A DNA stretch of 64,000 nt from Sycon ciliatum (taxonomy: Eukaryota > Porifera > Calcarea > Leucosolenida > Sycettidae), in contig NC_088654.1 in assembly GCF_964019385.1 (NCBI RefSeq), forward strand, positions 3,734,110-3,798,109, given 5' to 3'. A program made the position numbers and the translations under genes. Each line of letters opens with the position of its first letter. The first letter of the stretch is position 1. The notes under the pieces were generated by a model. The model had not been told where the DNA came from. It worked only from the letters and a program-made list of their open reading frames with translations, and ran no database searches. Below, piece after piece: positions 4,311 through 60,723 of the stretch.

Positions 4311-4495
4311 TACAGTCAACTTCGCTTATAACGACACCCGGCGGGGCATCAGAAAAGTGTCCTTATTCGTGAAGTTTCGTTATACCCGAAGTCTCATTAT
4401 GTGTTACAGTTGGACTTTGCTCTGGGCATGAAAATTCTGTCGTTATTCGCGAATTGTCGCTATATCCGCAGTCGCTATTCGCGAAGTTGACTGTA
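4311..4495. mobile_element. MITE family A, copy 1 (TA-flanked)
   Basis: A 185-bp element that starts tacagtcaacttcgcttata and ends with the inverse (gcgaagttgactgta). The termini are near-perfect inverted repeats beginning at a TA, as in Tc1/mariner/pogo-derived MITEs. A second copy at 55312-55486 is very similar along its whole length. There is no coding capacity. Confidence 0.9.
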
Positions 4496-23490: not shown

Positions 23491-23500
23491 TTAAGGTTAA

Positions 23501-24361
23501 AGGGGTAGTTAAGGCTAAAATCAAAATTTCACCAGTTGTAGTCTTCGGGGTGCTGAGCCAAATGGTCGTGGTCCGAGGAAGCTGAGATGCTCCCTTCCTA
23601 CTTTAATCCCAATCGAACTCGCGCACTTCCACCGAAACTGGGTGATTGCGCCCTACTAGATGGAGATTTGTATGTAAAATGTCACTAAACGCCCCATTTC
23701 GTTCTTATAAAAGCACGGACGACCGCGATTGGCCCATATGTTGTACTCTTTTGGACGCGGAGTTGACTGGTTTTGGTCCGAAAAGGCTGTGATGCAGCGT
23801 TCCTCCTTTATTCCCAATCGAACATGGTTGAACAAGCGGTCAAGTGCTCCTGCGTACACCAGTCACCTGGTCACTGTGCCTGCAGGGTACCACTTACTAG
23901 CCTGTTTGACCTTTTTTGGGTGCAGTCCTGTCACTCGAGTTGAACATGAGTTGAACCTTGGTGTGAAAGTTGTCGCCTGCTGGCATGGTGACCTGGTGAT
24001 TTGGGCACCCAGGAGCACGTGACCGCTTGTTCAACCATGTTCGATTGGGAATAAAGGAGGAACGCTGCATCGCAGCCTTTACGGACCAAAACCAGTCGAC
24101 TCAGCGTCCAAAAGACTACAACATATGGGCCAATCGCGGTAATCCGTGCTTTTATAAGAACGAAATGGCGCTTTTAGTGACATTTTGCATACAAATCCCC
24201 ATCTAGTAGGGCGCAGTCACCCAGTTTCGGTGGAAGTGCGCGAGTTCGATTAGGATTCAAGTAGGAAGGGAGCGTCTCAGCTTTCTTCGACCAAGACCAT
24301 TCGACTCAGCACCCCGAAGACTACAACTGGTGAAATTTTGATTTTAGCCTTAACTTCCCCT
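23501..24361. mobile_element. Foldback TTAA element
   Basis: About 861 bp bounded by TTAA at 23497-23500 and 24362-24365. The two arms (about 23501-23855 and 24010-24361) are long, strongly matching inverted copies around a roughly 150-bp loop. They start aaggggtagttaaggctaaa and mirror at the right end. Such an element would fold into one giant hairpin. A diverged half copy is at 26085-26365. Confidence 0.9.
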
Positions 24362-24365
24362 TTAA

Positions 24366-28483: not shown

Positions 28484-28520
28484 CTACAGAACAGAACAAC
28501 AAGGACAATCAAGGCTTGTC

Positions 28521-28564
28521 TGCTGCTACTTCAAGTTTCATGCTCTCGCAATCATCAGGCAACA
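28521..28564 (-). ncRNA. Hammerhead ribozyme fold (HHR3)
   Basis: Minus-strand order: stem I TGTTGC, core CTGATGA, stem II TTGC-GAGA-GCAT, core GAAA, short stem III closed by CTTGAAG, cleavage triplet GTA, and stem I return GCAGCA. All invariant core bases of a type I hammerhead are present. The stem II pair next to the core is U-U in place of the usual G-C. About 80 bp from here to 28484 is repeated, inverted, at 33936-34019. Self-cleaving RNAs like this are known from Penelope-like elements and retrozymes; no such coding element is seen here. Confidence 0.8.
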
Positions 28565-28781
28565 TGAAAATTGGGCGCCGACCATGCCGGTATATACACG
28601 AAACTGGTGAGTGAGGGTAGCGTTTTTTTCAGCTCGTAGATTTTCGCCTTTTGGATAGCCCAGTCGGCATCAGGCCGGTCTGGAGGTACCGGTAGGGCCT
28701 AGCAGCGGTTGTAGTAGTCCAGTGTAATAGGTAGCAGTAGTAGTGTGGTGCCCGTAGTCGTAGTCCTAAATTTTTTTTTTA

Positions 28782-29854
28782 ATGGGCGAGCTGACAGGCG
28801 AGCCGACAAAACTGCTCTGCTCTCTGCCTGGTATTGAGCAAAATGTGGTTAGCTTGCTTCAAACTTTGACAACTTTTGTCAGCGAGTCTAGAGACCGGGA
28901 GAGGTGCCTCCTACGGCGCTTAGATGAGCTCTCTGCACAAATCGTGGAGTTGAAGGCGGAGGTTCGTGTCTCCCTTGAAAAGAAGTCCGCCATTACCAGA
29001 TTACAGCCGTGGATTCCTCCTCGGAGCTGCCCGGCAGTACCCATACTCTCAACAGCCAGCGTACACGCCGTACCCGTACCAAAGGCAAAGGCAACCATGC
29101 AAGCAAGCAGCAGCAGCAGGATCTGCAGGATCAGGAAACAACTGGAGCGCACGTGGAGGCCGTATCCCGTAGCGGCACTTTCGAAAAAGTGATCGAGGAC
29201 AGTGGGCCCTCAGGCACGGAGTGCTCGGACGCAGATGACTTTCAGCAGCATGGAGGATGTCGATCCGGACACATGCCAGCCAAGCCTGTGCCCAACGCAA
29301 CCTCTGCATTGGACTTGGAGGCCATCCAGGATGATTCTTGGCAGTTGGTGGCTCAAGAGCCTCACCGCAAGAAGCGAGTAGTTGTCTTTATCGGCAATCT
29401 TAGTGCGCAGTGCAATGACCAACGGCTAAGCGAGTTCATCACAACACGCTCCACCGCAGTACACCAGACAGTTGCAGTTCATGATTGCACTGTCCGTGAA
29501 AACAAGAAGGGAATGATGACAGGAAGAGTAACTGTTGATGCTGATGCCCTCCCCACAGTCACCTCTGTAAACTTTTGGCCTAGACCACTGTATGCGAGGG
29601 AGTGGACATTCCATGAAAAACGTCATGGGCCAGTGCCAGGAAAGGGAAATGGACAGTCTGTGCTGTCGAAGAAGTCAGGCAAGGACTCGGCCACTCACAG
29701 CTCCGACCTGACACCATTGCCTCCCGACCGCAAGCGGCGGCATGGGGATTCACCTGACTCCGGCAGCCCACTGCTCAAGAAACTGGACAAAGACCACCAG
29801 CAGCAAGAGTCTGCCGAGCAACAACAACTGAATGCAGACAGCCAGCAATCATGA
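28782..29854 (+). pseudogene. LINE ORF1 protein, one frameshift
   Basis: An ATG at 28782 follows a T-run. The first 65 codons look like a coiled coil (leucine heptads, Glu/Arg-rich), as expected for trimerising ORF1 proteins. The reading frame moves after about 28979. From there the long frame to 29854 has a Gln-rich linker and a beta-strand rich region (RVVVFIGNLSAQCNDQRLSE..., about 29365-29600) with the look of an RNA-recognition motif. It ends in a basic and Gln-rich tail. Such proteins coat LINE RNA. Confidence 0.75.
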
Positions 29855-32728
29855 AGCTCCTCCTGACCAATGCAGGCGGGCTGCTGTCCAAATTCGGAGA
29901 GTTTCAGCACACCCTGTTGCTCTCAGGTGTGGATGTTGCCATAGTGACTGAGACGAAACTAACAGTGGATAAATGCTCTCACAGTGCATCTATGATCCCG
30001 GGATACTGTGGCCCGATTCGCCGAGACCGAACAGAACACGGAGGTGGCATTGGAGTCTGGATCAAAGCCGGCATCGCGTACCAGCATCTGGATCAGTACC
30101 AGTCTGCTGAATTCGAAACAGCCTGGCTCACCGTTGGCCAGTGCAACAGCAAAACTGTCATAGGTGCAGCCTATCGCCTTGGTTCCTGCGCTGACAATGA
30201 TCTGGCTCTACTCGAGCACTTAGACCAAAACATAGATACCATGCGGCAGCATGGTAAGCACATTATTCTGGCTGGAGATTTTAATGTTCACAGCACGTCC
30301 TGGCTTGGCAGCTCTCGAACGACAATCGCAGGGGAGTTCTTGGAAGAAATCAGTGCAACACACTGTCTTGTCCAGCACGTGACCCAGCCAACCCGTGGGC
30401 CAAACACATTGGATCTCGTCTTGTCCGACTTTCCTGGCACTGTCCACACAGCAGTATCATCTCCCATCCGGCGCTATGACCACTGTGTAGTATTGTCCAA
30501 CTTTCAGGAAATCACTCCTGTACTGGAGCGGCCAACAAGCAGGAAAGTATGGCGTTATGGCCAAGCAGACTGGGGCAGACTGAGGGCACATTTCCGCAGC
30601 TTTGACTGGGCTGCTGTCGTCTGCAATGTCCCCGAACTTGCATGTGAACAACTCACAACTGTAATTCTGGATGGAATGGACACGTTTATACCATCTAAGA
30701 CCCTGACAGTACGGACGACAGACCCTTGTTGGTGGACACCTGAGTGCAGCACTGTAGTTCAAGCAAAGACTCGTGCATGGAAACGGTGGCGTCAGCACCC
30801 CGATGATGGAGATTTGCGAGCTTCATTCATCGACCTAGTGGCCCGAACAGCTGCTATTTTGCTGCGCGCCCAATCATCATAATGATGCTCGTGTTAAAGC
30901 TAAGCTCAGCTCAGGCTCACTTAACGACAAGCAATGGTGGTCTAACATGAAGAGAGCTGCTGGGATGGAGCGTGCCTCTGAGATACCTCTGCTGAAGGAC
31001 ACCGACGGCACAGAGTATCCAACTCGCCAAGCCAAGGCCAATTGCCTCGCCAGGTACTACTCCCAGAAGTGTAGCCTTGCAGATGATGCTATCTCTCCAG
31101 ACGATTTGCCAGAAATGCAGCATTTGGACCGCCATGGTCTTGACCGCATCCATTTCCGGCTTGCTGATGTACGCCGCCGTCTAGCCAAGCTGAATACATC
31201 GAAGGCAACAGGACCTGACAATATTCCAGCAAGAGTCCTAGCTCAGTGCTCCAGTGAGCTTGCAGAACCAGTCACCAAACTGTTCTCACTCTGCTTTCGC
31301 CACGGTGTTCAACCTACCAAATGGAAGCTGGCCCATGTGGTTCCAGTCTTCAAGAAGAGCCCCCGCTCGGATCCCAAGAATTACCGGCCAGTCTCACTAC
31401 TATCCATCCTGTCAAAAGTAATGGAGAGAATAGTAAACAAGCAGCTCGTGAATTATCTGGAGCGTTTCAATATTCTGCCCGACAGTCAATATGGCTTTCG
31501 GCAAGGAAGAGGCACGTGCGACATCCTCACTGCTTTGCACACTGAGTGGGTCAAGACTGTCAGCGATGGAGGGTAGGCTCACATGGTGGCGGTGGACATA
31601 GCAGGAGCATTTGATCGGGTATCACATTCTGGACTGATTTTCAAAGCCAAGAACGTTGGCATTGGTGGCTGCCTGCTGCACTGGCTGCAGGATTACCTCC
31701 TGAACCGCAAACTATCAGTCCTGGTCCAAGGCGACTCATCCTCTCCGGCGCCCATAACAGCAGGTGTGCCCCAAGGCAGTATCCTTGGCCCGACACTTTT
31801 ACTCTTGTATGTGTCTGACCTGGATCAGTGCCTGTCTCCCGAGACGCGACTAAGTTCCTTTGCAGACGACAAAACCCTCTACAGCCTCATCCGCACGCAG
31901 GACAATATGCATGACATGACTGCTGCCTTGCAATCCAGCCTCAAGCGTCTTGAAGAGTGGGGAGAACGCTGGCGCATCAGATTCGAGCCCTCTTAATCGC
32001 AACAGCTGCTGATGACTACGAAAGCCACACACCCTGCTGTCCCTGACATCAAGTTTGGAGGTATCGCGGTTCCGGAAGCCAACACCATCAAGCTTCTTGG
32101 AGTGACATTTGACGCCAAGCTGTCATTCCGGGATCACTTGCACTCAATTGCGACACGTGGCTGCCAGAGACTGGGTGTTCTCCGTCGGGCTTGCCGGGTG
32201 TTAGATTACCATGGCCGGCTTTGTGCGTACAAGGGATTTGTGCGACCCATCCTCGAGTATGCTCCCCTTGTGTGGATGGGAGCTGCATCCAGCCACCTCG
32301 CCCGACTCGACCGTGTACAGAAACGTGCAATGGCCATTATTGGCCCTGGTGCCCTTCTCCAAAGCCTGTGCCACCGCCGGATTGTATCTGGGCTGGTATA
32401 CCTGTACAAGCTCCAGTGCATCCCAGGACCACCCCAGCTCACCGCCATGATCCCCCCTCCAGCCAACCATGTAGAAGCTCGGCGCACCCGGAGTCAACCC
32501 CCTCCTGGCCAGCAGCACCATGTGCAGCTGCAGCGAGTCCTGGACAGGAGAGCACCTGCCTATGCTTCTCGCTCCTTCCCGTTTTCTGTAGTGTCAGTAT
32601 GGAACAGCTTGCCGAGCGAAATTGTAAGGGCTCCACTCAGCTTGAAGCGGCTCCACACGTTCAAAGAAGATGTCCATAAGTACCTCACGCACCAACACTG
32701 GCTGATGGCTACCGACTTCTACGGATGA
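29851..32728 (+). pseudogene. LINE ORF2: APE endonuclease and reverse transcriptase, disrupted
   Basis: The start ATG overlaps the ORF1 stop (ATGA). The N-terminal apurinic-type endonuclease has LLLTNAGGL, Thr-Glu-Thr-Lys (metal-binding Glu, about 29947), LAGDFNVHS (about 30269) and YDHCVV (about 30475). A frameshift near 30880 moves to the frame carrying the RT: KATGPDNIPAR (about 31203), NYRPVSLLS, GVPQGSILGP (about 31762) and the catalytic FADD (about 31858). In-frame stops at 31574-31576 and 31994-31996 break it. The C-terminal end (SVWNSLPSEIVRAPLSLKRL, about 32600) is typical of the group. The intact protein would be about 960 residues. Confidence 0.93.
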
Positions 32729-33262: not shown

Positions 33263-33938
33263 TTGCCAGGAGAGGGTGGTATGAAAAGCGGTGTGAGAAT
33301 GTGAGGGCTAGCGGTGTTATTTTAGGCAGGAGGCTGTGTGAAAACTGTGACAAACTAAAACAAACGGAAAAGTGTACTCGAAGTAGAATGAAGGTGTTGA
33401 GAACCCTGCCGGACAAAGCTAATACTTTAAGTAGAAGTGCGAATTCTACCATATCATTCAACAACTGCATCTCCTCTGATGAGTTCCCATTGCCTGTACG
33501 AGTGCGGTATGTGGAACGAAAAGAGTTTATCATTATTATTTATTATTATTGCAAATAACGCTGAGTAATTACACGAATGCATAAAAACCAGCATTTGCTT
33601 CCGGGAAGGATTCACAAACATAAGACAAAAACACCATCAATGTAACTGCACATACGAAAAGCAGCTTCTATTGTCAAGTTCGAGTGGCAATGTCAGAAAG
33701 ACGGTAGACTGTTCGTGCACGATGTTCACCCTGCAGGGGATAAGTCAAGGACGCGGCTCGGCAGAGGAAGATGTTGTACTTGCTGTTGTGAAGTGTTGCT
33801 GCTGGGCTATTCGTACTGGTGTTTGCAAGTGTCGTGTGGTCCCGTCGAGCCGAAAACAAACTTACCACTGACCTGTCAGTTTGAGCTCTCTGGCAAGGTA
33901 CGTTCGAGCCTGATTTAAATCTGTCTTTGGAAAGTTTA
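33263..33938. other. No gene recognised
   Basis: Begins right after the LINE poly(A) tail. AT-rich TATT repeats occur near 33530-33555. Short frames only. Confidence 0.4.
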
Positions 33939-33982
33939 TGTTGCCTGATGATTGCGAGAGCATGAAACTTCAAGTCGCAGCA
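33939..33982 (+). ncRNA. Hammerhead ribozyme fold (HHR2)
   Basis: Plus-strand order: stem I TGTTGC (33939-33944), core CTGATGA (33945-33951), stem II TTGC-GAGA-GCAT, core GAAA (33964-33967), stem III closed by CTTCAAG, cleavage triplet GTC (site after 33976), and stem I return GCAGCA with one G-U pair. The core is fully conserved and the GTC triplet is the preferred one. Sequence from 33936 to 34019 is an inverted copy of 28567-28484. As in HHR3 the first stem II pair is U-U. Confidence 0.85.
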
Positions 33983-34365
33983 AACAAGCCTTGATTGTCC
34001 TTGCTGTTCTGTTCTGTATTACGCTCTGCCTCCGCCGTGTTGAGCACTGTCAGCACACTGGGTACACCCTCCGGTGTTTCATTGCTATCAGGTTCGGCCT
34101 CATTTCCTCTGTGCTGCGCTGATGAGAACAAAGGACGAAACAGTTCCATCCGTAGATTGAGTGTCCCCTACCTTGGAGTGCATGCTAGACGACCAGCACA
34201 TCGTCTTCCAGGAGCAGGTCCGGAACGTTGTTGCTTTCGTCATAATGCCAGTGGCAAGCCGGTTGCTTACCGCATGATTCGACATTACGATGACACCTCA
34301 CTGCCTGGAGGCAGCGTTCATTCTACCCCAGCCTCATCCGGGTAACCACCGTGAGAATAAAAGGT

Positions 34366-46935: not shown

Positions 46936-48467
46936 CTATAACAAGGTTTGTGAGCGGTGTGCTATGGGTGAAGTTCCTGGCCTGTGGATGAGTCTCATCG
47001 GGAACTGTTGTAGATAATCCAGCCACCGTGTTCGTCGCCCATGGATCCCATCCATTGCCAGGCTGTTGATCCATTTGAGTGCTGCGTGTCGGTGATAAGG
47101 TCAAATGGCTGGCCGGAGAGATAGACCCTACACTTCTTGATGGCCAGGATCACTGCCAGCAGCTCACGGTCCGTGACAGGGTAGTTCCTCTCTGCCTGCG
47201 TCAATGTGTGGTGGAAGAACGCTACCGGCGCTAGATGCTTGCCGTCTCGTCGCTTTGCCAGCATTGCACCGGTACCGACGTCCGATGCATCCGTTACTAG
47301 TATGAACGGCCTCTTCATGTTCGGTAACTGCAAAACTGGTGCTGAGGCGACCTGTCGCTTTAGCGTCTCAAATGCTAAACTTGAGTTCTCACTCCATTGA
47401 AGCAGTGTGCTGCGAGGACCCTTCATCATTTCGTACAGCGGTTTTGCAATGGTCGCCATGCCTGGGATCCAGCGCTGAACGTATGAAAAGGCGCCCATAG
47501 CCTTCCGGAGCATAGTAACAGTTGTAGGCTTAGGTGTGCGGCGCAACGACTGAGTCCTGGCTTCGGAGATGCGCATTGTGCCTGCTGCTATCACGTTCCC
47601 AAGGAACTCCACCTCCCGCACACCGAAACAGCATTTGTCGGGGTTTAGCAGTACACCAGCCGACCTGAGTTTACTGAGCACCTCCCGCAACCGGCTCTTA
47701 TGCTCCGTCCAGCTGCGCCCCCATACCAGCACGTCGTCTAGGTAGCATAGCGCAGCCGTCCAATTGAGTTCGCCCAGAATCGCTGTCATCAGACGCTGAA
47801 AGGTCGCCGGGGCTCCCGACAGGCCAAACGGGATGCCCTGACCAGTCCATTCATACTGGCCATCCAGCGTGACGAAGGCAGTCTTGGCCGCATCCTCACG
47901 ACGCATGGGCATTTGATAGTAGCCGGGTTTCAAGTCAACCGTGGAGAAGAACTGCGCTTCAGTCAACTGATCCACCAAGTCGTCAATCAGAGGCAGTGGG
48001 TGATGCTGGGGATGACTGTCTGCGTTTAGCCTTCGGTAGTCCATTGCCAGTCTCAGTCGGCCATTCTTGCGCCGAGCGGCCACTATTGGAGCAGCCCATG
48101 GCGAAGTAGACTACCGGATCAGTCCCTGTTGAATGAGGTACTCTACTTCGTCCCGCACCTCCTTCCGTGCGTCCTGTGCCATCCTACGAGGTCTTGACCA
48201 CTGTGGTGCTGTATCACTCTTGAGGTGTATTTCATGCTGGATGCCAGTTCTTGCCGTCGGTAGCTGATCGCCTCCCGCCCAGAACACATCGCCATACCCG
48301 TTGACCAGCTCCTGAATCTCCTGCTTCTTGCTGTCCTGTAGGCTTTCATCCAGCTTGTACCCCGTTATCTGCCGCCTCGGCTCATCACTCTTCCCCGCCT
48401 CCATTTTGAGTTGGTGTTCATATTGTTGAGTTTGAGTGGGGGAGTGTGGGCGGTGTGCTATACACAT
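46936..48467 (-). pseudogene. Ty3/gypsy pol remnant: reverse transcriptase and RNase H
   Basis: Minus strand. The upstream half (48467-48111) reads to GLIR, then an in-frame TAG at 48110-48108, and continues in frame into STSPWAAPIV. RT blocks seen: RLAMDYRRLN, FFSTVDLKPGYYQ, FGLSGAPATFQRLM, the catalytic ALCYLDDVLV (about 47750) and EFLGNVI. The RNase H start (FILVTDASDVGTGAML) follows. A one-base deletion near 47088 shifts the frame; the other frame then continues ALKWINSLA ... RTRWLDYLQQF to a stop at 46938. No integrase, gag or LTRs are present. It is a truncated dead copy. Confidence 0.92.
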
Positions 48468-48717
48468 CTCCTACGTGACACTTGACACAATCATCATCAT
48501 ACTTTACACTATATGCATTAGCACCTGTATTGCTGTACTGGTATTTAGAGGGCTTCTGATTGTTGATGAAGGCAGAGTTATCCTGGACAATACAACCGTC
48601 TCAGGTTTATCTAATACTAGTTTTGAACTAGTATTGGGTTATAATATTGTGATTGTAAATCCAAATCCGTTGATCCCCGAGCTGCAGAGAGTGCTCAATG
48701 TCAGAGACAGAGCTTAG

Positions 48718-48836
48718 TACATGGCAGACTCAGCGGAGGACGTTCAGGTTGGTTGTTAGTTGTCTGATGATTGCCTAATGGCATGAAACTCAGAGTTACA
48801 ACCAACCTGAACGTCCTCCGCTGAGTCTGCTATGTA
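48718..48836. repeat. 119-bp palindrome carrying a hammerhead
   Basis: Outer arms from tacatggcagactcagcgg to its complement (ccgctgagtctgctatgta) pair almost perfectly for about 34 bp. They then continue into the stem I of HHR1. The element is thus one long RNA or DNA hairpin with a ribozyme core at its tip. Confidence 0.93.
48759..48802 (+). ncRNA. Hammerhead ribozyme fold (HHR1)
   Basis: Stem Ia GTTGT (48759-48763) pairs with ACAAC (48798-48802). Core CTGATGA is at 48764-48770, stem II TTGCC-TAAT-GGCAT follows, then GAAA (48785-48788), a short stem III closed by CTCAGAG, and cleavage triplet GTT (after 48797). A 7-base bulge (48752-48758) separates stem Ia from the long outer helix Ib (CAGGTTG with CAACCTG onward). 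A bulge at this place is where natural type I hammerheads make their tertiary contact with loop II. Stem II sequence differs from HHR2/HHR3 but pairing is kept. Confidence 0.83.
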
Positions 48837-48911
48837 ATAATCATTGTATGTAGTACAAGTACCGGTACTAACGAAGAGAATCCGTTCGTCAGCGGACTGT
48901 GTCAATCATGC

Positions 48912-49314
48912 TACAGTAAAGTTCCGTTAATAAGCCCCGGGGCGTACATGTATACTTTGCAGAGCGTCAAAAACCGGGCGTATATTTGGGCATGGGCTTA
49001 TTTTAGGGCATGGGCGTTATTTCGGTCGCAATCTGCAGAAGATCAATCTATCAGCAACCCACTAGTTTCAGTGAACCGCCATTCACACTGAGCGCGGTAC
49101 AGGTACATCAAACCACAGCTGGAAATTTGGTCGTAACCAAGAATGTAGTGATAAATTACAGATTTGATAGGTAAACCACTTGTCCACTTTACGCCCTGGG
49201 CTTATTTCGGGCATGGGCGCTAAAACGGACTTGAAGTGTACACCGCCTAAAACTGGGCTCATTATCGGACATGGGCGTTATTTAGGGTGGGCTTATTTAC
49301 GGAATTTTACGGTA
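48912..49314. mobile_element. MITE family D
   Basis: 403 bp with ends tacagtaaagttccgttaat and the near complement ttacggaattttacggta. Inner inverted blocks are built on ataagccc and gggcttat. TA-flanked; non-coding. Confidence 0.85.
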
Positions 49315-58805: not shown

Positions 58806-58809
58806 ATGT

Positions 58810-60162
58810 AGAGTAAAACCTGTAACTAAAGACCACCGTGACTAGCGACCAGCCTGGTACTACAGTAAAACCTGTAACTAAAGACCACCGTGACTAGGGA
58901 CCAGCCTGGTACTACAGTAAAACCTGTAACTAAAGACCACCATAACTAGCGACCAGCCTGGTACTACAGTAAAACCTGTAACTAAAGACCACCGTGACTA
59001 GCAACCAGCCTGGTACTACAGTAAAACCTGTAACTAAAGACCACCGTGACTAGCGACCAGCCTGGTACTACAGTAAAACCTGTAACTAAAGACCACCATG
59101 ACTAGCGACCAGCCTGGTACTACAGTAAAACCTGTAACTAAAGACCACCGTGACTAGCGACCAGCCTGGTACTACAGTAAAACCTGTAACTAAAGACCAC
59201 CGTGACTAGCGACCAGCCTGGTACTACAGTAAAACCTGTAGCTAAAGACCACCGTGACTAGCGACCAGCCTGGTACTACAGTAAAACCTGTAACTAAAGA
59301 CCACCGCGACTAGGGACCAGCCTGGTACTACAGTAAAACCTGTAACTAAAGACCACCGTGACTAGCAACCAGCCTGGTACTACAGTAAAACCTGTAACTA
59401 AAGACCACCATGACTAGCGACCAGCCTGGTACTACAGTAAAACCTGTAACTAAAGACCACCGTGACTAGCAACCAGCCTGGTACTACAGTAAAACCTGTA
59501 ACTAAAGACCACCGTGACTAGCAACCAGCCTGGTACTACAGTAAAACCTGTAACTAAAGACAACCGTGACTAGCGACCAGCCTGGTACTACAGTAAAACC
59601 TGTAACTAAAGACCACCGTGACTAGCGACCAGCCTGGTACTACAGTAAAACCTGTAACTAAAGACCACCCTGACTAGGGACCAGCCTGCTACTACAGTAA
59701 AACCTGTAACTAAAGACCACCGTGACTAGCGACCAGCCTGGTACTGCAGTAAAACCTGTAACTAAAGACCACCGTGACTAGCGACCAGCCTGGTACTACA
59801 GTAAAACCTGTAACTAAAGACCACCGTGACTAGCGACCAGCCTGCTACTACAGTAAAACCTGTAACTAAAGACCACCGTGACTAGGGACCAGCCTGGTAC
59901 TACAGTAAAACCTGTAACTAAAGACCACCGTGACTAGCAACCAGCCTGGTACTACAGTAAAACCTGTAACTAAAGACCACCGTGACTAGCAACCAGCCTG
60001 GTACTACAGTAAAACCTGTAACTAAAGACCACCGTGACTAGCGACCAGCCTGGTACTACAGTAAAACCTGTAACTAAAGACCACCGTGACTAGCAACCAG
60101 CCTGGTACTACAGTAAAACCTGTAACTAAAGACCACCGTGACTAGCAACCAGCCTGCTACTA
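58810..60162. repeat. 52-bp satellite, 26 copies, derived from a MITE end
   Basis: Regular 52-bp periodicity. Each unit starts acagtaaaacctgtaactaa and ends cctggt(act). Copies differ by one to three substitutions, often at the same sites (gcgacc/gcaacc/gggacc). The unit start is the terminal inverted repeat of the MITE whose right end lies at 60305. Confidence 0.98.
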
Positions 60163-60305
60163 CAGACCACTTGGCCACGCACGGACGGTCTCACAATCAT
60201 AATATGGTTGTACCATGCAAACCTCTAACTAAGGACCACCTGCCATTAAAGACCGCTTTCTCTGGCCCCAAGCCGGCGTGGTTGTTAGTCACAGGTTTTA
60301 CTGTA
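60163..60305. mobile_element. Right part of the MITE that founded the 52-bp satellite
   Basis: The sequence runs from cagaccacttggccacg to gtcacaggttttactgta at 60305. Its terminus is the inverse of the satellite unit start (acagtaaaacctgt). The inner tctaactaaggaccacc echoes the satellite once more. Confidence 0.85.
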
Positions 60306-60306
60306 T

Positions 60307-60407
60307 GTGCACAAAGGAGGTTTTCCAGAGTGACTTGAAGTCGCCTGGTGGTTGCATAGTGCAAGAAACTCGCTGTTGTGACGAACCCTGTAAAACCTCC
60401 TTTGTGC
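60307..60407 (+). ncRNA. Decayed hammerhead (HHR4) in a 101-bp palindrome
   Basis: Outer arms gcacaaaggaggtttt (60309-60324) and complement (60392-60407) are perfect. At the tip: stem Ia GTCGC with GTGAC (one G-U), core CTGGTGG in place of CTGATGA, a perfect 5-bp stem II (TTGCA-TAG-TGCAA), GAAA (60365-60368), a short stem III and GTT. The architecture equals HHR1 at 48718-48836, including the bulge between stem Ia and the outer helix. The two A-to-G core changes hit catalytically required bases, so this copy should not cleave. Confidence 0.75.
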
Positions 60408-60723
60408 CTGCCTGTGTGTAATAGTGCTCCACAGTAATGTGTGGATCACTCTCCACTGGCTAAACACACGACTTTTCTTCTTTACTGTAAAAGCCATTAT
60501 CCTAACGAGGCACATATATAACGATTTCCCAAAATTGACTAGTTTACGTGTACCAAAAGTAACGATTCTCACTCATTCTCAACGCTCAATAGGACAGTAT
60601 ATGTGTCGATTTCTGTACAACGATTTCTATTTTAACGACAGATTTCTCCTCGTTTAACTCGTTAGAGTTAGCACTTCGTTATATATATATGGCTTTTACA
60701 GTAGTTGTATGTGCATGTACATG

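Follow-up and report, generated by a model that had tools for sequence, protein, structure and literature searches.

A hammerhead-bearing palindrome in the sponge Sycon ciliatum as a probable twin mini-insertion of a Penelope-like element

Introduction

Inverted pLTRs, optional tails and hammerheads are already known for Penelope-like elements (PLEs). Minimal hammerheads of PLEs, reportedly described by Cervera and de la Pena in 2014, are said to lie in the terminal repeats and usually to lack helix III. For Poseidon PAc of Anolis carolinensis, the portion of PMC11167929 considered here describes reverse transcription that starts inside the RNA at two sites, which define the tail, target strands that are both cut and then extended, and insertion in vitro for which hammerhead cleavage is unnecessary. 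In the same portion of that paper by Frangieh et al., the start of reverse transcription was not seen to differ from one strand to the other in vitro, and the later insertion steps are left unvalidated (PMC11167929). Penelope of Adineta vaga has inverted pLTRs with an optional tail on one of them, and its palindromes are attributed to self-priming, with an antisense RNA strand as inferred template, in the part of PMC3846280 used here. The insertion route of PLEs, their frequent head-to-head arrangement and the purpose of their hammerhead are questions on which copies in Sycon ciliatum bear. Here, we describe a palindrome in a 64,000-nucleotide stretch of S. ciliatum DNA (the window; contig positions 3734110-3798109), which is quite probably explained by twin mini-insertion of a PLE through the steps proposed below.

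Structure of the palindrome

The preliminary description placed a hammerhead ribozyme at the tip of a 119-bp perfect palindrome. The palindrome at 48718-48836 is real, with arms (48718-48756 and 48798-48836) complementary over 39 positions, but it is not perfect, as 38 of the 39 pairs are perfect and one is G.T, and the 41 nt between the arms are non-palindromic. A wider inverted repeat (48707-48756/48798-48847) matches at 90%, and the palindrome folds as RNA at -89.6 kcal/mol (z -17.4). Its tip carries every part of a type I hammerhead, i.e. the core and three helices with stem I open:

48758..48802, plus strand: type I hammerhead, predicted cut after 48797
48759-48763 (GTTGT) / 48798-48802 (ACAAC), plus strand: stem I, 5 bp
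48764-48770, plus strand: core CTGATGA
48772-48775 / 48780-48783, plus strand: stem II
48785-48788, plus strand: GAAA
48788-48790 / 48794-48796, plus strand: stem III, 3 bp, followed by GTT

All parts listed in the preliminary description (CTGATGA, stem II, GAAA, a small stem III and GTT) are present at 48758-48802, the 7-base bulge that it saw within stem I is correct, and the motif yields the same predicted cut position, after 48797. The minimum-energy fold of the window copy (-89.6 kcal/mol) is not the hammerhead, which reaches -73.5 kcal/mol; with tertiary contacts left aside, a shifted pairing is 16 kcal/mol more stable than the hammerhead, so that this copy, even if transcribed, may cut only rarely. 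For the parent leader (+1 to +46) the respective values are -11.2 and -5.3 kcal/mol.

The surroundings of the palindrome hold further repeats and coding pieces. Just left of the insertion, 46995-48083 (minus strand) encodes a reverse transcriptase (RT) with RNase H (Pfam), which we take to be Ty3/gypsy-like. Pieces of a non-LTR retrotransposon (endonuclease and RT; Pfam) at 29009-32728 (plus) lie between outward-facing copies of a different hammerhead family, family a, at 28558 (minus) and 33945 (plus). A tandem array of ~52-bp units occupies 58809-60160, and its unit also occurs inverted at 60262-60305, where it adjoins the palindrome of another family, family d. A large foldback at 23497-24365 has arms of 399 nt that are 91% complementary and 71 nt apart, and one frame of the window matches an NLR-like protein of S. 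ciliatum at 100% identity across 99% of the frame.

The hammerhead motif and its relatives

A looser descriptor found hammerhead-like motifs in the window at 60345 (plus), 33945 (plus) and 28558 (minus) besides that at 48764, and gave 0-4 matches in each simulated window. The strict descriptor kept three of these four motifs (60345 was lost) versus none in 150 first-order Markov simulations, and in three of the four stem II has a U.U at its base. Rfam returned no hammerhead for the whole window at gathering level, nor for the stretches around 48764, 60345 and 33945 when relaxed to E 10. The preliminary description had counted a missing covariance hit against its reading, and with Rfam the hit is indeed missing, but tested copies of two other families were missed likewise. 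The relaxed matches that did appear (miRNA models on the hairpin and weak sRNA, lncRNA and snoRNA models) were all below gathering level and were dismissed as hairpin resemblance or chance.

Ten sequences, which stand for three families only, could be aligned to a common fold in which 95% of 120 pair cells are standard, against at most 59% in slid controls. Eleven cells were changed on both sides, and neither this nor the 95% was reached in any of 500 shuffles. Among five covariation measures on these ten sequences, two (the number of pairs with changes on both sides and that of additional pair types) were not above shuffles. Of 87 distinct copies retrieved through similarity to the parent element, 65 have an intact hammerhead core.

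A comparison of 48500-49000 with phage records gave no match. In a pattern search of IMG/VR, five contigs shared the same stem II; by eye they carry type III hammerheads and were rejected as relatives. In these contigs (L001-L005) the motif reads CTGATGATTGC..GCATGAAACT and lies a few tens of bases 5' of an ATG, with a stem II base identical to that of the sponge motif.

Genome copies and the parent element

A 20-nt piece of the arm occurs, with at most one mismatch, at 628 places in the S. ciliatum assembly (538 Mb), compared with 0 for the control. A search with the palindrome produced 794 candidates, and the 40 that were scored included some full palindromes and many matches to only the hammerhead and right arm at ~99%. 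In the 20 loci that were fetched, the right arm is the end of a longer sequence common to several loci, and facing arm ends are 105 to 2514 bp apart. These genome-wide searches, of the kind proposed in the preliminary description, uncovered many copies and a coding parent.

The parent is seen in locus L014, where a 733-aa open frame (4333-2135, minus) lies between hammerhead copies of the same direction at 4435 (minus) and 1742 (minus). A 515-bp inverted repeat, extending to 5604, adjoins this unit, a layout known from this one locus. The tail segment leads into the open reading frame and the hammerhead sits at the junction of pLTR and ORF. The protein contains a YRDD motif, presumably that of an RT, and is 47% identical over 586 residues to protein P0043 of Solemya velum, which passes the Pfam GIY-YIG cut-off (26.2 vs 22.6). 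In a protein search, 8000 candidates were scored, and 1792 of them matched with an E value of at most 0.001. With the Pfam RT and GIY-YIG models, nothing exceeded the cut-off in the Sycon ORFs (best GIY-YIG E 0.11, in L029) or among 25 aligned relatives including P0042. Judging from sequence, we class the parent as a PLE on account of the pLTR-ORF-pLTR layout, the inverted pLTR, the optional tail, the hammerhead at the junction and the protein likeness to P0043. The earlier idea of a mobile palindromic element holds in so far as the source is mobile and multi-copy (628 places, control 0), but the palindrome itself is not the mobile unit. Nor does the layout fall outside described families, as had been thought: the palindrome is a head-to-head double insertion from a PLE, a class that the preliminary description named but considered unfitting.

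Where copies begin and end

The ends of family c, to which the window palindrome belongs, were read from 100 listed places out of the 628; 16 of these were left out as they were already in the sample from the hammerhead search, and 77 loci were newly read. They hold 86 anchored copies, or 75 without near-identical ones, of which 15 reach the edge of the fetched sequence and 60 show a 5' end. Among these 60 ends, 23 lie at -4 to +2 of the A in AGTTGTCTGATGA, and the others are upstream (17), at 3 to 36 (10), at 37 to 43 (7, three of them exactly at 40) or at 44 to 52 (3). Parental upstream sequence is retained in 27 distinct copies; 18 of them have TATAAG at exactly -32, and in 25 the A follows TC. 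We regard the resulting TCAGTT at the inferred +1 as initiator-like. From copy ends and TATA box we infer that the RNA starts at the A of AGTTGTCTGATGA, which is the 5' edge of the hammerhead. Two sites separated by about 55 nt account for most 3' ends of the 75 copies, 48 being at site 1 (parental position ~79) and 18 at site 2 (parental position ~134), with nine elsewhere. Copy ends are a readout of the RNA 5' end and of two RT starts, and possibly of the ribozyme cut.

Head-to-head pairs

Across all loci sampled there are 32 head-to-head pairs, 26 of them distinct by end positions. In 24 of the 26, the two arms use different sites, one of them site 1 and its partner site 2, whereas independent ends would make 40% of pairs differ (p 3e-8); in the remaining two pairs both arms end at site 1. 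One arm, in L013, was assigned to site 2 despite an extension that ended at 97, and another alignment reached 134. At the 5' side, one arm lies near +1 (-4 to +6) in 15 pairs, both arms in seven and none in four. Exact direct flanking repeats of at least 9 nt accompany 14 of the 26 distinct pairs, one of them in a GATA tract, as a raw count without shuffle control; where seen, the repeats measure 9-15 nt. Junctions contain up to 27 nt of filler or short microhomology, and in L023, L074 and L103 full arms abut within one base.

The window copy is itself such a pair, in which a right arm from +1 to site 1 and a left arm from parental position 40 to site 2 are separated by one T:

48663..48756, minus strand: left arm, PLE leader cDNA in inverted orientation, parental positions 134 (RT site 2) to 40, by alignment
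48663..48716, minus strand: optional tail between RT sites 1 and 2 (parental positions 80-133)
48757..48757, no strand: single T separating the arms, not parental, by alignment
48758..48836, plus strand: right arm, leader cDNA in direct orientation, between the inferred +1 (the A in AGTTGT) and RT site 1 (parental position 79, CTATGTA)

The alignment of the left arm stops at parental position 134, and extension by flank similarity reached 144. Its start at parental position 40 is the first base 3' of the predicted hammerhead cut. The flanking repeat of the window copy is only 6 nt long.

Other hammerhead families in the window

Two further families, d and a, are represented in the window:

60309..60328, minus strand: family d palindrome, inverted outer arm, coordinates read from sequence
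60338..60410, plus strand: family d direct mini-copy with degenerate hammerhead (CTGGTGG for CTGATGA)
33938..34018, plus strand: family a mini-copy, starting at the 5' edge of the hammerhead
28485..28568, minus strand: second family a copy, with ~27 nt more family sequence upstream

The preliminary description had linked the palindrome to 60307-60407, rightly, as this is the same kind of object from a different family (d), though its hammerhead is probably inactive judging by its core. A genome search with family d gave 52 candidates, 40 of which were scored, with 41 matches, and 20 loci with 22 copies were fetched. By eye, CTGATGA is present in six of the 22 and nine fit CTGANGA, with the other cores decayed. 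In 17 copies no related upstream sequence was detected past the hammerhead 5' edge, although two of these (L124 and L135) resemble by eye the upstream sequence common to L126-L128; the two arms of L141 are alike. TTTATA stands at -35 and -33 in two loci (L126 and L127). In L131, two extra repeats of the copy's own first ~15 nt precede it, as if the reverse transcriptase had restarted at the template 5' end.

For family a, 1200 candidates were found and 40 scored, giving 50 matches with several abutting head-to-head pairs. By eye, 20 loci contain 14 pairs, and in 13 of them one arm ends at query position 80-87 and the other is longer, the same pattern of unequal ends as in family c; only the partner arm is informative, because selection of top scores favours one long arm per pair. 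The partner arm in L149 ends at 57, and L153 and L154 are probably one duplicated insertion. No conserved TATA box was found in family a. A run of ~17 C/G lies between the arms of L152, and a second upstream limit ~27 nt before ATGTTGC (TACTGGCATGG or TACCGGCATGG) was observed in L155, L157, L158, L161 and the window copy at 28558 (minus).

Origin of the twin copies

We have little doubt that the window palindrome is a PLE-derived twin insertion, and a mechanism with two strands and two sites is its reasonably likely origin. As proposed, the PLE RNA would start at the A of AGTTGTCTGATGA, as copy ends and TATA box suggest, so that the hammerhead makes up its first ~45 nt. The PLE reverse transcriptase would then start within the RNA at +79 or +134, where ends are observed, with the enzymology taken by analogy from Anolis Poseidon. 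With the template 5' end 80-135 nt away, synthesis would run off at +1 and leave a cDNA of leader size only. Both cut target strands would be extended, with one cDNA per site, and joined head to head, a structure that is observed and an order of events that is presumed. In the window copy, the right cDNA would have run to +1 and the left one ended at parental position 40 (+41), the 5' end expected from hammerhead cleavage. The long palindrome would accordingly be a by-product of two-sided insertion and not a designed stem I; the long stem I noted in the preliminary description was made by the second, inverted cDNA and does not belong to the ribozyme, whose parent form has a stem I of 5 bp. As leader-only copies retain the whole hammerhead, uncut RNA seems to be the usual insertion template, and the two target strands seem to use different RT sites.

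The main competitor is self-priming, in which a single cDNA folds back, the strands of stem I being able to prime, and copies itself so that both arms derive from one molecule. This was proposed for the bdelloid Penelope palindromes in the part of PMC3846280 drawn on here, and several junctions on short complementarity (AGTT, TCAG) as well as the junction at stem I in L143 and L144 of family a would suit it. However, self-priming predicts equal arm ends, as the copied arm should share the end site of its template, yet 24 of 26 pairs differ, and in L023, L074 and L103 the full arms are so close, within one base of each other, that there is no room for a fold-back loop. The different-site rule therefore disfavours self-priming for family c, and we consider it unlikely. 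An origin as a metazoan retrozyme, i.e. a non-autonomous element of small size that has circular RNA and carries a type I hammerhead, would account for the type of the motif, its many copies and the basal U.U of stem II, shared with HHR_Amex2 of the axolotl (PMC7229834, in part), but the loci read are head to head or single rather than tandem repeats of 150-450 bp, and the parent is protein-coding, which makes this origin highly improbable. The TA flanking the arms of the window copy and the plentiful other inverted repeats in the window might also suggest that a terminal-inverted-repeat DNA transposon or MITE with TA duplication carries a hammerhead by chance. The arms, though, form an end of a longer, protein-coding element, whose ORF resembles a PLE protein, facing ends are 105 to 2514 bp apart, there are two alternative termini, and flanking repeats have 9-15 nt where seen; the TA-flanked MITE was dropped when the coding parent was found, and we give it hardly any credence.

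Some arm ends bear on whether the ribozyme cuts in the animal. An arm starts exactly 3' of the cut on the left side of the window copy and on one side of L117, and in L046 and L122 both arms do so; a single extra base stands next to each, a C in three of these loci and a T in the fourth. The idea of a cut-site signal arose from the window copy; in the sample gathered afterwards, three of the 60 ends lie at position 40, more than the local rate predicts (P 0.004), but two of the three are arms of one insertion, leaving two insertions. L122 came from searches aimed at the cut-site junction, which gave one place exactly and two with up to three mismatches, and by eye this twin lies inside a larger imperfect inverted repeat. 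Arms of family a that start at 43 (L143 and L144) were considered as cleavage ends and rejected, as they overlap stem I and microhomology explains them. As a sign of cleavage, the cut-site ends of family c are a lead only, and that the left arm of the window copy records cleavage has a little less than an even chance. A fuller account would couple both strands and both sites, with strand 1 primed at site 1 and strand 2 at site 2, so that nearly every twin has a tail at one end and none at the other; lying at the extreme RNA 5' end, the hammerhead would, on cutting, remove the capped leader, templates with their 5' end close to the RT sites would yield only twin stubs of ribozyme size, and some stubs (window copy, L046, L117 and L122) would record cleavage in the animal. 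This combination is offered tentatively, and we doubt it more than we trust it.

Comparison with known systems

In a genome where leader-bearing copies number in the hundreds, often as twins, and fall into at least three hammerhead families, questions of PLE insertion become a matter of counting, and the rule of one end each can tell two-strand priming from self-priming. General searches of the PLE and hammerhead literature, not aimed at the rule and covering their sources in part, gave no description of leader-only twins or of this rule; together with the ribozyme at the inferred +1, these details may thus be new.

Poseidon PAc resembles the Sycon element in its hammerhead at the pLTR-ORF junction, two internal RT starts and extension of both strands, and differs in that its ORF begins at stem II and its hammerhead needs protein to cut (PMC11167929, in part). 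Its RT starts lie 111-118 into the ORF, and leader-only twins and the rule of one end each are Sycon features without mention for Poseidon in the portion of PMC11167929 considered. Uncut RNA as the likely Sycon template agrees with the dispensability of Poseidon hammerhead cleavage in vitro (same portion). The copies of Adineta vaga are whole pLTRs of ~200 bp as opposed to leaders of 80-135 nt in Sycon, and the part of PMC3846280 used here makes no mention of a ribozyme, whereas Sycon leaders carry a hammerhead. Metazoan retrozymes share the type I hammerhead and, in one axolotl family, the U.U at the base of stem II, but unlike the Sycon copies they are tandem, non-coding and expressed as circular RNA, as stated in the consulted part of PMC7229834. 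Minimal PLE hammerheads, like those of Sycon, are located in PLE terminal repeats according to the part of PMC6155905 used here. Compared with these minimal motifs, the Sycon hammerheads keep a stem III of 3 bp in three families, and in family c the 5' edge of the motif coincides with the inferred 5' end of the RNA.
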